This document shows positions 23,088-28,326 of a stretch of 64,000 nt of DNA, piece by piece (positions within the stretch are counted from its first letter, which is position 1; each line of letters begins with the position of its first letter). The stretch comes from Zhongshania aquatica (lineage in GTDB: Bacteria; Pseudomonadota; Gammaproteobacteria; Pseudomonadales; Spongiibacteraceae): NCBI RefSeq assembly GCF_027257955.1, contig NZ_JANZNQ010000005.1, positions 1 to 64,000 of the forward strand, given 5' to 3'. The notes under the pieces are model-generated. The model was not told where the DNA came from and did no database searches. It saw nothing but the letters and a program-made list of their open reading frames with translations. The position numbers were made by a program, and so were the translations under genes.

Positions 23088-24296
23088 ATGTCTGACTACA
23101 GTATCTTTACATCAGAGTCGGTGTCGGAAGGACATCCGGACAAAATGGCCGATCAGATTTCTGATGCCGTACTAGACGCGATTATCGCCCGTGACAAATA
23201 CGCCCGCGTTGCAGTGGAAACGCTGGTAAAAACCGGCATGGCAATCGTCGCTGGTGAAGTCACCACCTCGTGCTATGTCGATTTAGAAGACATCATTCGC
23301 GACGTGATTACCGGCATCGGCTACAACAGCTCAGACGTCGGTTTTGACGGCGCGAGCTGCGCAGTACTCAACGCCATTGGCAAACAATCTGTCGACATTA
23401 ACCAAGGTGTGGACCGCGCCAAGCCAGAAGACCAAGGTGCTGGCGACCAGGGCTTGATGTTTGGTTACGCAACTAACGAAACGCCGTCCTTAATGCCTGC
23501 GCCGTTGTTCTACTCTCACCGCCTTGTTGAGCGCCAAGCATACCTGCGTAAAAACGGGGTATTGCCGTGGCTGCGTCCAGATGCCAAAAGCCAAGTGACT
23601 CTACGCTATGAAAATGGCGTGCCAGTTGCTATCGACGCGGTGGTTTTATCCACCCAGCACAACCCAGAAATTTCACTGAGCGACTTACAAGAAGCCGTGC
23701 GTGAAGAGATTATTAAAAACGTATTGCCTGCAGAGCTGCTGCACGCAGGCACCAAATACCACATCAACCCCACCGGCAAATTTGTCATCGGCGGCCCAGT
23801 AGGCGACTGCGGCTTAACTGGTCGCAAAATTATCGTAGACACCTACGGCGGTATGGCACGTCACGGCGGCGGTGCGTTCTCGGGTAAAGACCCATCAAAG
23901 GTTGACCGCAGCGCGGCGTATGCTGGTCGTTATGTTGCCAAGAATATCGTGGCGGCAGGCCTAGCCGATCGCTGTGAAATTCAAGTGTCTTACGCAATCG
24001 GTGTTGCAGAACCAACCTCTATCTCAATCAACACCTTTGGCACCGGCAAAGTCAGCGACGATAAATTAATCGCCGCAGTACGTGACGTGTTTGACCTACG
24101 CCCCTACGGCATCACCAAAATGCTGGATCTGGCTCACCCCATGTATCAACCGACCGCCGCCTACGGTCACTTCGGTCGCGATCCCTACGAACACACTTAC
24201 ACGTGGAAAGAGAACGGCGAAACCAAATCTGAAACCAGCACTGCATTTAGCTGGGAGAAAACAGATCGGGCGGAGGCGTTGAAGGCAGCGCTATAA
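23088..24296 (+). CDS. metK: S-adenosylmethionine synthetase
   Basis: This 402-aa enzyme makes SAM from methionine and ATP. Family features include [16 protein letters not shown] at the N-terminus, [12 protein letters not shown], the P-loop-like [14 protein letters not shown], and [16 protein letters not shown]. The length is slightly above the E. coli enzyme and typical of Pseudomonas relatives. The start follows AGAGGA. It begins 36 bases after the ArsR-methyltransferase gene, so the regulator and enzyme are likely co-transcribed. An inverted-repeat element starts three bases after its stop. Confidence 0.97.
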
Positions 24297-24298
24297 CT

Positions 24299-24768
24299 CG
24301 GGAGAGGCTTGACGGGAGACGGTATACGCACAACCTTCTAAGCCGCTCAAAAATATTAGGAGAGTTGCCATGGAACGGCGACATATAAGAATGGATGTCT
24401 GGCAGGATGCTGTCGCACTGGTTCATCAAATATATGAATTCAGCTCAGCATTCCCCCAAGACGAACGGTTTGGACTGACCAGCCAAATGCGTCGCTCGGC
24501 TGTTAGTGTTCCGAGCAATATCGCAGAGGGGGCCGCCAGAGGCTCTGACAAAGAGTTTTTACGGTTTTTATATATTGCGAGGGGCTCTCTCGCAGAGCTA
24601 GAAACCCAAATGATTATAGCCACACAACTAGGTTATATAAACGAACAAGAAAATTGGCAGCCAGCCTTGGAACGCGTTTTCGCAAAACTAGCTGCACTAA
24701 TTAACCGACTTAGGGCGAGTATCGGCTGATACGCATTTGCGTCTCCCATCTCCCGTCCAGCATTTAGC
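24299..24768 (+). mobile_element. Inverted-repeat element carrying an S23/IVP-like gene
   Basis: A 470-bp unit bounded by imperfect inverted repeats encloses the four-helix-bundle gene. The left end holds GCTTGACGGGAGACGG (24307-24322); the right end holds the complement of GCTGGACGGGAGATGG (24746-24761). Both ends recur, in the same order and orientation, in an 80-bp unit after ahcY (27 of 31 bases match at the left, 29 of 33 at the right). The element sits exactly in the metK-ahcY gap. Mobility is inferred from these repeats; no transposase is encoded. Confidence 0.65.
24370..24729 (+). CDS. Four-helix-bundle protein of the S23 ribosomal / IVP family
   Basis: This 119-aa basic helical protein shows the family core: MDVWQDAVALV, FGLTSQMRRSAVSVPSNIAEG, KEFLRFLYIARGSLAELETQ. 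Members were first found encoded in intervening sequences of 23S rRNA genes and resemble the Avd subunit of diversity-generating retroelements; free-standing copies have no settled function. The conserved Arg pair in QMRRS suggests nucleic-acid binding. The start follows AGGAGAG. It is located between metK and ahcY inside a repeat-bounded unit, in the same orientation as both neighbours, so it is likely carried by their transcript. Confidence 0.9.
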   Translation: MERRHIRMDVWQDAVALVHQIYEFSSAFPQDERFGLTSQMRRSAVSVPSNIAEGAARGSDKEFLRFLYIARGSLAELETQMIIATQLGYINEQENWQPALERVFAKLAALINRLRASIG

Positions 24769-24785
24769 TTACAGAGGAATACAAC

Positions 24786-26159
24786 ATGACAACATTCACA
24801 GATTACAAAGTCGCCGACATCAGCCTAGCAGCTTGGGGACGCAAAGAACTCAGTATTGCAGAAGGCGAAATGCCAGCGCTGATGGCACTGCGCAGCAAGT
24901 ACGGTGCAGACAAGCCATTAGCAGGCGCTAAGATTCTTGGCTGCATTCACATGACAATTCAAACCGGCGTGTTGATCGAAACCTTGATCGAACTCGGTGC
25001 CGAAGTGCGCTGGTCTTCATGCAATATTTTCTCTACCCAGGACCACGCTGCCGCCGCAATTGCCGCTGCGGGTATTCCTGTTTTCGCTTGGAAAGGCGAA
25101 ACCGAAGAAGAATACGAATGGTGTTTAGAGCAAACCATTCTTAAAGATGGCCAGCCTTGGGATGCCAATATGGTATTGGATGACGGCGGCGACTTAACTG
25201 GCCTGCTTCATCAGAAATACCCACAAATGATGGATAGCATTCACGGTATTACCGAAGAGACCACAACAGGTGTTCACCGTCTTCAAGAAATGATGAAAAA
25301 AGGGGAGTTAAAAGTACCCGCCATCAATGTGAACGACTCGGTCACCAAGTCTAAAAATGACAACAAATACGGCTGTCGCCACAGCTTGAACGATGCGATC
25401 AAACGCGGCACAGATCACCTGTTATCTGGCAAGAAAGCATTGGTTATTGGCTACGGTGATGTGGGCAAGGGTTCTGCACAATCGCTTCGCCAAGAAGGCA
25501 TGATTGTTAAGATCACCGAAATAGATCCGATCTGCGCAATGCAAGCCTGCATGGATGGCTATGAAGTGGTATCGCCATTCATCGACGGCATCAACGACGG
25601 CACTGAAGCCTGTATCAACACATTGGTGCTGGGAAACACTGATTTGCTGGTTACCACCACAGGCAACGTCAATGTATGCGATTCTAATATGTTGAAGGCT
25701 CTCAAAAATGGCTGTGTAGTCTGCAATATCGGTCACTTCGACAACGAAATTGATACGGCCTTTATGCGTAAAAACTGGGAATGGGAAGAAGTGAAACCAC
25801 AGGTTCACCTCGTGTACCGTAACAAGGCAACTAACGACCATTTAATTCTACTGTCTGAAGGTCGCTTGGTTAACTTGGGCAACGCAACAGGCCACCCAAG
25901 CCGCATCATGGATGGCTCATTCGCCAACCAAGTACTGGCGCAAATGTACCTGTACGAGCGTCGCTTTGCCGACTTAGAAGATAACTTTAAAGCAGCTGCC
26001 ATAACCGTTGAAGTATTACCTAAAAAGCTAGACGAAGAAGTAGCAGCTGATATGGTCGCTGGATTCGGTGGCGTCATCACCAAGCTCAGCACTACTCAGG
26101 CTGACTATATTGGTGTTAGCGTTGAAGGACCATTTAAGCCCGAGAGTTATAAGTACTAA
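24786..26159 (+). CDS. ahcY: Adenosylhomocysteinase
   Basis: This 457-aa NAD-dependent enzyme hydrolyses S-adenosylhomocysteine to homocysteine and adenosine, removing the product of SAM-dependent methylation. Landmarks: [28 protein letters not shown], the NAD-binding [31 protein letters not shown], and C-terminal KPESYKY. The start follows AGAGGAA. It is in line with metK and metF. I see no SAH-riboswitch-like leader in the 57-base gap upstream, which is instead filled by the right repeat of the S23 element. Confidence 0.97.
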
Positions 26160-26160
26160 G

Positions 26161-26240
26161 CGGGAGACGCTTGATGGGAGACGGCAAACGCGAGGGCTGA
26201 GTTGGCTTTTGCGTCTTCCGTCTCCCGTCCAGCCTTAAGC
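26161..26240 (+). repeat. 80-bp miniature inverted-repeat element between ahcY and metF
   Basis: This unit begins one base after the ahcY stop codon. Its left end (26161-26191) and right end (26207-26240) closely match the two ends of the S23 element at 24299-24768, but only about 15 bases separate them. The ends pair through GCTTGATGGGAGACGG (26169-26184) and the complement of GCTGGACGGGAGACGG, 14 of 16 bases. It therefore looks like an ORF-less derivative and would form a strong hairpin in the mRNA. Confidence 0.75.
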
Positions 26241-26270
26241 GATATTGCAAAACATCACCGGAACACCATC

Positions 26271-27104
26271 ATGTCCAACCGTTACAGTTTTGAATTCTTC
26301 CCACCCAAAACCGAAGCCGGTCGCGAGAAGTTAAAAGACACCCGCAGCCAATTGGCCGCGCTGAATCCCGAGTTCTTTTCGGTGACCTACGGCGCTGGCG
26401 GCTCCACCCGCGACAACACCCGCGGCATTGTGCTGGAAACAAAAAAGGCCGGCTTATCAGTCGCGCCGCACTTGTCTTTTGGCGGCGATGAAGAGTCTGA
26501 GATTTTAGAATTATTAAACAGCTACAAAGATGCGGGTATCGATCGCATCGTTGCCCTGCGCGGTGACATTCCTTCTGGCATGGGCGCCACTCGCTTGGTT
26601 TATGCTCGTGAATTGGTTGAATTTATTCGCAAACACACTGGCGATCACTTTCAACTAGAAGTAGCGGCCTACCCAGAAATTCACCCTGATGGCAAAAGCT
26701 ACGATGCCGATATTGGCTTTCTAAAAGACAAACTGGACGCCGGTGCAAACAGTGCCATCACCCAGTATTTTTTCAGCGCCGATTCCTACTTCTACTTTTT
26801 AGACGCCTGTGACAAGGCCGGTATCGACAAGCCGATTTACCCCGGCATTATGCCGATAACGAACTATACCAATCTGGCGCGTTTCTCCCGCAACTGCGGC
26901 GCAGAAATTCCCCGCTGGTTGTCGAAAAAACTAGAAGGTTACGGCGACGATCAGCAAAGCATCATTGATTTCGGCACAGAGTTTGTGACCGAGCTTTGCC
27001 ATATTCTGATGGAAGGCGGCGCACCAGGTATTCATTTTTACAGCATGAATCAGGTAGAGCCGATTAAGAGTATTGCTAAAGCCGTGATGGAATCGCATCC
27101 ATAA
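26271..27104 (+). CDS. metF: Methylenetetrahydrofolate reductase
   Basis: This 277-aa flavoenzyme reduces 5,10-methylene-THF to 5-methyl-THF, the methyl donor for homocysteine remethylation. Family signs are SFEFFPPKT at the N-terminus, FFSVTYGAGGSTRD, IVALRGDIP, ITQYFFSAD, and GIMPITN. The start at 26271 gives the normal N-terminus; an in-frame extension upstream runs through the miniature repeat and is not coding-like. The ribosome site is weak (CCGGAA). It closes the methyl-cycle cluster and is followed by a terminator. Confidence 0.95.
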   Translation: MSNRYSFEFFPPKTEAGREKLKDTRSQLAALNPEFFSVTYGAGGSTRDNTRGIVLETKKAGLSVAPHLSFGGDEESEILELLNSYKDAGIDRIVALRGDIPSGMGATRLVYARELVEFIRKHTGDHFQLEVAAYPEIHPDGKSYDADIGFLKDKLDAGANSAITQYFFSADSYFYFLDACDKAGIDKPIYPGIMPITNYTNLARFSRNCGAEIPRWLSKKLEGYGDDQQSIIDFGTEFVTELCHILMEGGAPGIHFYSMNQVEPIKSIAKAVMESHP

Positions 27105-27379: not shown

Positions 27380-27652
27380 ATGGACACGATCAGCGTAAAC
27401 AAATTTAGAGACAACCTTAAAAGCGTTGTAGAACAAGTAGTTAGCAGGCATGAACCGCTCAAAGTGACTCGGCGAGCCGGTGAGGCTTTTGTTGTAATGA
27501 GCGCCGACGATTGGGAACGAGAGCAGGAAACCCTGCACGTACTCCAAAGCAAAAACCTCATGCAACAAATTGCCGATTCCCTTGAAACCCATACCCGCGG
27601 GCAAGGCTACAAACCGACCGAAGAGCAGATGAATGAGATCACTGGTATTTGA
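27380..27652 (+). CDS. yefM: YefM/Phd-type antitoxin
   Basis: This 90-aa protein has the Phd/YefM fold signature: MDTISVNKFRDNLKSVVEQV, then PLKVTRRAGEAFVVMSADDWE. The N-terminal half binds operator DNA and the disordered C-terminal half wraps the toxin. The ATG at 27380 is preferred to an in-frame upstream start because it gives the family's standard N-terminus. It overlaps the toxin gene by 20 bases, as is usual for such pairs, and the complex normally autorepresses the operon. Confidence 0.9.
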   Translation: MDTISVNKFRDNLKSVVEQVVSRHEPLKVTRRAGEAFVVMSADDWEREQETLHVLQSKNLMQQIADSLETHTRGQGYKPTEEQMNEITGI

Positions 27653-27905
27653 GGGTAATACCTGGGAAGCGTATGAAAGCATGCGCGAAAAGGACAAGAG
27701 GCTGCACAAGGCACTCTGTAAATTACTCAAGGAAATGCTCAGATCTGATGATCCTTCATCCGACCTCGGCAAGCCCGAACCACTCATGCACAATCTCTCG
27801 GGCCTTTGGTCAAAACGAATCTCGCAGAAAGACCGCTTGATATATCGTTTCGATGATAAGTCCATTTATATCTTCGCTATTGGTGGACACTACGATCAGC
27901 CCTAA
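27633..27905 (+). CDS. yoeB: YoeB/Txe-type mRNA-cleaving toxin
   Basis: This 90-aa RelE-superfamily RNase cuts mRNA on the ribosome. Residues equivalent to E. coli YoeB Glu46, Arg65, His83 and Tyr84 are visible as Glu49 (GKPEPL), Arg68 (DRLIY), His86 and Tyr87 (GGHYDQ). HNLSGLWSKRI is the family signature. All key residues are present, so it should be active. It has a three-residue extension beyond the usual C-terminal HY. Its stop codon lies inside GCCCTAAC, a cassette-boundary-like motif. Confidence 0.9.
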   Translation: MRSLVFEGNTWEAYESMREKDKRLHKALCKLLKEMLRSDDPSSDLGKPEPLMHNLSGLWSKRISQKDRLIYRFDDKSIYIFAIGGHYDQP

Positions 27906-28326
27906 CGAGGCTGCAAAAAAACTCCAGCCACTCCAAAAATGAAATTACATTCGTGTTCCCACTCGAAATCTGGAGCTTATTCGCATGCCAACTCGGCCAG
28001 ATTTCAAAAAAAGCGCCTATTTTTAGCTCAAAATGCAATCAAACAAATTCGCCAGAATTCCGTTTTAGTTTTTCTGCAGCCTCAACGCCTGAGCTTACCG
28101 GCATATTTTGGATTGCCGCAGGCAACGAAAAATATGTCCGAGTACAGCGAATTGTTAGGCGGAAGTCCTCCACGACCCCTGGAGCTCTCCCGAAACTGCC
28201 GACGCGGACGTATTGTTCTGCCACCGTACCCTTGTCATCAACTGTGTCCAGCGCCGTGCGATGCGTTGCATCTGTTCGGAGGCTTTGTACGTACAATAAA
28301 TGCAAATTCAAATACTAGGAAAGATT
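27906..28326. other. Structured non-coding region between toxin and MAPEG gene
   Basis: These 421 bases contain no gene I trust; two open frames over it resemble nothing. They hold nested inverted repeats: GAGGCTGCAAAAAAACT (27907-27923) against its complement at 28067-28083 (16 of 17), and GAAATCTGG (27965-27973) against CCAGATTTC (27997-28005). GTTAGGCGG at 28154-28162 is the exact complement of CCGCCTAAC at 28793-28801. Confidence 0.5.

Follow-up and report, generated by a model that had tools for sequence, protein, structure and literature searches.

A gene-less hairpin between ahcY and metF of Zhongshania aquatica belongs to a dispersed hairpin family that shares its ends with an S23 gene unit

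What is the 80-bp gene-less hairpin between ahcY and metF of Zhongshania aquatica, and how is it related to the unit with an S23 gene on the other side of ahcY? We analysed a stretch of 64,000 nucleotides (hereafter the window; contig NZ_JANZNQ010000005.1, positions 1 to 64,000) from a genome assembly of 4.49 Mb in 107 contigs. An earlier note on this DNA had described the hairpin as a shortened copy of the S23 unit. The features concerned are as follows.

23088-24296, + strand: metK, upstream of the S23 unit
24299-24768, + strand: S23 unit of 470 bp in the metK-ahcY gap, with inverted heptad arms around the S23 gene
24307-24345, + strand: left arm of the S23 unit (inverted pair, 74% complementary over 39 nt)
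24370-24729, + strand: S23 gene of 119 aa (PF05635; TIGR02436 four helix bundle protein; relative of PDB 2gsc)
24723-24761, + strand: right arm of the S23 unit (inverted pair), overlapping the S23 stop codon
24786-26159, + strand: ahcY, between the S23 unit and the 80-bp hairpin
26161-26240, + strand: gene-less hairpin of the GGGAGAC (A) type in the ahcY-metF gap (imperfect palindrome, fold, ends and copies)
26169-26191, + strand: left arm of the hairpin (inverted pair)
26211-26233, + strand: right arm of the hairpin with the CGTCTTCCGTCTCCCGTC core (inverted pair, core search)
26271-27104, + strand: metF, downstream of the 80-bp hairpin

Downstream of metF, a Phd/YefM-type antitoxin gene and, after it, a YoeB-type toxin gene occupy positions 27380-27905 of the window, and a MAPEG-family gene follows at 28300. 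Short flanking repeats there might be integron cassette ends.

The 80-bp element is real and lies where the earlier note had placed it. It contains no ORF and starts at 26161, one base past the ahcY stop codon, which ends at 26159. Its own inverted repeat (26169-26191 and 26211-26233) pairs at 83%, and the RNA fold of 26155-26245 reaches -46.3 kcal/mol, compared with -29.2 ± 3.4 kcal/mol in 200 shuffles, none of which was as low (z = -5.0). The fold as single-stranded DNA is weaker (z = -2.97; 3 of 200 shuffles equally good), and the single arms fold weakly on their own (0 and -3.1 kcal/mol). The core CGTCTCCCGTC, with at most one mismatch, occurs six times in the window against 0.59 expected, and all six occurrences are inside the 80-bp element and the S23 unit. 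Each arm of the hairpin holds about two heptad units; longer arrays are found elsewhere in the genome, and a lag-7 scan of the window gave no stretch over the threshold. An Rfam match to mir-1292 at 26169-26233 (E = 0.0013; 35.6 bits against a cut-off of 90) was judged a chance match to a hairpin.

Compared with the ends of the S23 unit between metK and ahcY, those of the element agree at 27 of 31 bases on the left and 29 of 33 on the right, with the same orientation, which reproduces the earlier comparison. On the right, the match extends over 46 bp (83%, E = 1.7e-5) back to the S23 stop codon. This match is compatible with an origin by deletion of the S23 interior, rather than proof of it; the roughly 390 bp reported as missing stand as arithmetic. 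The two units are similar and only 1.4 kb apart, as would be expected if the ends of the S23 unit had been duplicated locally inside one operon. The right arm nevertheless has its best match on a different contig (C19:391800-391828, 97% over 29 bp, E = 7.5e-7) and scores lower against the S23 unit next to it; further copies lie on other contigs, and both window units are found in a second genome of the family (G008) as well. We therefore rejected local duplication, which we regard as extremely improbable.

Repeats of the A type occur elsewhere in this genome on contigs C11, C19, C25, C30, C52, C85 and C96, among others, together with a second repeat type, GTCGGAN (B). The 80-bp element is thus a non-coding member of a dispersed hairpin family that shares its ends with the S23 unit. 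The earlier note had named the absence of further copies in this genome or its relatives as evidence against its reading; such copies are present. A profile search with PF05635 found one S23 gene in the genome, and B hits outnumber A hits (52 against 22), although this S23 is of the A type. Contig C19 also carries two longer, perfect-looking GTCGGAA arrays (133106-133177 and 188419-188503), the sole lag-7 stretches in 400 kb of that contig.

Both window units begin shortly after stop codons, from which target preference or selection for an mRNA hairpin had been suggested. We surveyed 22 hand-picked places in this genome, including both window elements, with genes taken as simple ORF calls. The purH-purD place missed the strict motif (its hairpin was recognised by eye), and one place fell within an antisense ORF call. 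Among 19 places outside the window, 13 had motifs of at least 38 bases and 6 had only a short motif (<38 bases). In all 20 places outside ORF calls, the nearest stop codon is within 42 nt; the median distance is 15 nt on the stop side, counting all distances, and 40.5 nt on the start side. In another family genome, G010, where the first 20 A clusters by contig order were taken and 2 were lost to the strict motif, the nearest stop codon is within 78 nt in 16 of 18 places, and the remaining two lie between divergent ORFs (medians of 19 nt on the stop side and 131 nt on the start side). Closeness to stop codons is therefore general, and it does not decide between targeting and selection.

S23-bearing and gene-less units occupy the same gaps. 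The purH-purD gap holds a gene-less hairpin in this genome and an S23 unit in another Spongiibacteraceae genome (L207), and the ahcY-metF gap, gene-less here, has its counterpart in L213, where an S23 unit follows ahcY (metF was read by eye there).

PF05635 matched 11 of 21 genomes of the family, 10 of which carry the gene between metK and ahcY. The arms there are of the A type in six (G000, the window's genome, G002, G003, G008, G014 and G015) and of the B type in three (G010, G016 and G017). In G001 they are of a GCGAGAC/GCTAGAC type, with additional A-type units on the left side. The A-type S23 protein of the window is 47-51% identical to two aligned B-type proteins. Without S23 there, metK and ahcY lie 54-67 bp apart in 8 genus members; in two sister-genus genomes the distance is 122-125 bp. 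The ahcY-metF gap carries A hairpins in eight genomes, a third type in G001, and none of these types nor B in eight. At this site G017 has a B hairpin, G007 a degenerate one recognised by eye, and G003 one beside its second ahcY copy. The G001 hairpin (L078) has 14 consecutive perfect GACGCTA units in one arm.

Dispersed arrays and S23 co-occur in this family. Hits to heptad-pair patterns were counted with the strands summed and with backward patterns as control. A and B together gave 74-256 hits in 10 of 10 genomes with S23 at metK-ahcY (G003 among them is only 84% complete, with 7% contamination) and 0-8 hits in nine S23-less genomes, each at least 99% complete; the backward controls gave at most 24, apart from G014 (45). 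A clear exception is G020 (70% complete), with 133 hits and no S23 detected, and the S23-less G019 (89% complete) has 29, little over its control of 20. Fisher's test gives 1.1e-5, or 2.2e-4 when G019 and G020 are counted against the association, and the former overstates the case since the genomes are related; they are not independent, because within the genus the S23 genes lie in one common slot. G012, which has a PF05635 match, was counted as S23-less because that match resembles Avd (see below), and the alternative count is 10/11 versus 0/8. The third pattern was highest in G014 (432, control 131) and G001 (213, control 14) and was omitted from the comparison, since it is unspecific and with 2 mismatches also takes A repeats. 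In G012 (L106, contig C18, about 1450-1857 plus flanks), the ORF scoring with PF05635 resembles, by eye, the Avd of a diversity-generating retroelement, and its flanking repeats look near-identical, differing mainly where one copy has A.

How such hairpins came to lie in these gaps may be explained in several ways. They could be selected intercistronic RNA hairpins, acting as mRNA stabilisers or processing sites, which are inherited and exchanged by recombination, with S23 as an RNA-binding partner and movement playing a minor part. Closeness to stop codons and the strong RNA fold agree with this, as does the purifying selection on S23. It is also in line with the other stem-loops that occupy the ahcY-metF gap in S23-less species. 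Recombination is also seen: the contig with the second ahcY of G003 is a chimera that joins the left end and beginning of a B unit, through a decayed middle, to the terminal part and right arm of an A unit, which shows recombination between A and B units. (Within this decayed S23 chimera, in the metK-ahcY gap of G003:C49 (L069), a further repeat, GTAGGTTGGG...CCCAACCTAC, occurs twice.) Differences between relatives speak against this explanation. A hits number 22 in the window's genome and 78 in its close relative G008, although the former is split into 107 contigs, and one and the same gap, ahcY-metF, holds an A hairpin in G016 and a B hairpin in its sister species G017. Arrays are nearly missing from the S23-less G005 and G007, both of which are nested in an S23-bearing clade of the ahcY tree (support 94/92 for the position of G007). 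This tree, in which G003 is represented by the contig with the decayed S23 and scored as S23-less, requires 6 changes of S23, at least 4 of them forced, and the S23 label is no more clustered on it than in 185 of 500 shuffles. We consider the explanation by selected RNA hairpins unlikely, while taking it seriously.

The earlier note had treated the two units as the same element within one operon. Their shared ends bear this out, with the amendments that the arms are built of 7-base units, that one gap can hold the A type in one species and the B type in its sister, and that the pattern reaches far beyond the operon. S23 genes in many phyla sit between inverted arrays of lineage-specific 7-base repeats. 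Among the best 80 of at least 582 relatives in an S23-alignment scan, drawn from many phyla, 76 had flanks long enough for testing; the inverted arms beat all 100 shuffles at 45 of these 76 loci, compared with 3 of 173 control ORFs, and 31 of the 76 had no significant arms. Tandem similarity with a period of 7 was found at 30 of the same 76 loci, compared with 13 of 173 control ORFs and with 8 of 636 pieces cut at random from these loci, and other periods except 14 at 0-3 of the 76. A second, class-wide set of 45 loci, some picked for arrays in their genomes and several sharing a genome, showed arms at 32 of 43 testable loci. The arm unit, read at 42 of the 80 loci of the first set and in the second set, differs by lineage: GGGAATC in Xanthomonadaceae, CGGAACT in Geobacter, GGGTGAT in Sulfuricella and AGTGAGA in a Flavobacterium. 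The gaps that hold S23 units include accB-accC, gmd-fcl, purH-purD and apbC-dcd. Other units follow sdhA, ahcY or an acetyltransferase gene or lie amid polysaccharide genes, and nuoC-nuoD, nuoM-nuoN and the gap after rpsI were added by eye.

Beyond the family, too, repeat types and S23 types match only loosely. PF05635 matched 77 of 369 genomes in a sample of the class, 71 of them over the cut-off. It was found in 7 of 8 genomes in which both strands carry GGGANNC triple arrays, compared with 70 of 361 others; among the 7, G263 has only a sub-cut-off S23 remnant, which lies between its own arrays. Any GGGANNC array at all was present in 22 genomes, 11 with and 11 without PF05635. In G210, whose S23 arms are of the AGGGCCA type, AGGGCNN, a pattern run solely as a backward control, gave 345 genome hits, and AAGGGCC/AAGGGCG arrays appear within 40 kb; the same backward pattern gave 153 hits in its genus mate G320, which has no PF05635 match. 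Units similar to their own arms were seen by eye in G180, G177 and G301. In 200 kb from each of three S23-positive genomes (G191, G316 and G416) no tandem heptad was seen, and a fourth (G364) had one stretch that differs from its arm type; among the S23-less, G395 (40 kb) and G005 (120 kb) had no lag-7 stretch. The proposition that every S23 genome has dispersed arrays was accordingly dropped, as 3 of 8 sampled had no lag-7 stretch and 1 had another type. A strict pairing of dispersed repeat type with S23 type also failed in several genomes; the arrays of G387 and of G313/G408 are unlike their own S23 flanks.

The family can be compared with several known systems. REP/REPIN elements, which are moved by a RAYT transposase, are short inverted doublets that lie outside genes, for the most part on their downstream side (PMC3116915, PMC3733652), and are thought to depend on one repeat-adjacent gene (PMC3116915). 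The 80-bp element is likewise an inverted doublet hairpin with many extragenic copies, and the REP tag CGTC is present in A arms. It could therefore be a REPIN, with the S23 gene merely caught between two of them. Against this, REPs are small palindromes with a GTAG or CGTC tag, whereas the arms here are heptad arrays that fold weakly when single, and the gene is S23 instead of a tyrosine transposase. A search of 464 kb (some 10% of this genome) with an approximate regular expression, a weak instrument, brought up no RAYT-like ORF. S23 genes of many phyla between heptad arms of unrelated sequence would also be unexpected from chance neighbours. We hold the REPIN explanation to be quite improbable.

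A second system is the intervening sequences of 23S rRNA, for example in Coxiella, where an S23 ORF lies within a stem of terminal inverted repeats and the element has been described as selfish (PMC4990558). The metK-ahcY unit likewise has its S23 ORF within a stem-loop. It differs in that the present units lie in the protein-gene gaps metK-ahcY and ahcY-metF instead of inside an rRNA gene, have arms built of heptads and come with many gene-less copies. Three conserved 23S motifs were found in none of the 80 and 45 S23 loci of the two sets. Since neither palindromic arms nor an rRNA location was found, we file the hairpin family under neither REPIN/RAYT nor intervening sequences.

Heptamer repeats have been described before. 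Xanthomonas and Nostoc carry GGGAATC and GGGGAYT repeats, in Xanthomonas as 70-75 inverted intergenic pairs per genome at a mean of 28 nt from the 5' neighbouring ORF (PMC4692102). The 7-base unit is common to these repeats and the present family, and GGGAATC-type arms also flank S23 in X. arboricola and X. dyei (the arms in X. vasicola were not significant). In the available text of PMC4692102, the repeats are mostly transcribed, generally have no association with mobile elements, and lie at 90% between the same ORFs in two species, at loci more stable than controls. This stable placement supports the explanation by selected RNA hairpins and argues against frequent movement. The TAACTGA heptamers of Beggiatoaceae also form intergenic 7-base arrays in unrelated phyla and differ in being almost all direct rather than inverted (PMC4679880). 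Word searches of the available texts gave no hits for S23 or helix bundle in PMC4692102, which names no protein partner there, or for S23, helix bundle or intervening in PMC4679880. In the open-licence papers searched, which leave most subscription papers and preprints outside, we found no link between S23 and heptamers.

S23 belongs to PF05635, the "23S rRNA intervening sequence protein", a four-helix-bundle family. The one PDB relative found, 2gsc of Xanthomonas campestris, is a homopentamer, and the function of S23 was called unknown in 2016 (PMC4990558). Avd of diversity-generating retroelements is distantly similar in sequence (E = 3e-4 to 6e-4), with about 20 bits where the cut-off is 80. 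Within the genus, dN/dS of S23 stays at 0.007-0.088 in 12 of 13 pairs and reaches 0.21 in the closest B pair, and these low values indicate that the protein is maintained by purifying selection. We know of no catalytic activity of this small helical bundle, and S23 would therefore be unable to copy DNA alone.

The explanation that we favour, as somewhat the more probable side of an even question, is a family of S23-linked hairpins, in which hairpin and protein work together in outline as REPIN and RAYT do, with S23 in the place of RAYT. The complete unit is a long stem with the S23 gene as its loop; the two arms of the stem are arrays of a 7-base unit, inverted with respect to each other, and gene-less members are the same stems minus the gene. 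S23 may bind the heptad stem in the form of RNA or of single-stranded DNA. Such binding would let the hairpins be copied or kept, by enzymes of the host or of other elements, in transcribed gaps just past stop codons. The 23S rRNA intervening sequences could then be copies that landed in rRNA loops. The 80-bp hairpin itself would be transcribed between ahcY and metF, where it is a plausible RNase III or mRNA-stability site. Several results weigh against the S23-linked system: the inability of S23 to copy DNA alone, the loose match of repeat and S23 types, arrays without S23 in G020, S23 without tandem heptads in 200 kb each of G191, G316 and G416, the 31 of 76 loci with no significant arms, the 11 of 22 array genomes without PF05635, and the stable placement of the Xanthomonas repeats.

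A broader proposal, which we put forward tentatively and with more doubt than trust, is that S23 is the dedicated partner of bacteria-wide mobile hairpins made of lineage-specific 7-base repeats, each S23 lineage having its own arm repeat; the rRNA intervening sequences and the Xanthomonas heptamers, perhaps the cyanobacterial ones too, would be members. Since S23 is no known transposase, copying would have to follow a new kind of route, for example RNA-guided or borrowed from the host. Through the S23 arms, the rRNA intervening sequences, the published GGGAATC repeats of Xanthomonas and the hairpins of the window become linked. The association gives a testable role to S23 and to heptamer repeats that were described without a protein partner in the available texts (PMC4692102, PMC4679880), and it suggests a reason for the S23 gene in rRNA intervening sequences. 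It also offers a natural series of many lineages for comparing a repeat "word" with its protein, and it points to an overlooked partnership between S23 and bacterial repeat DNA.
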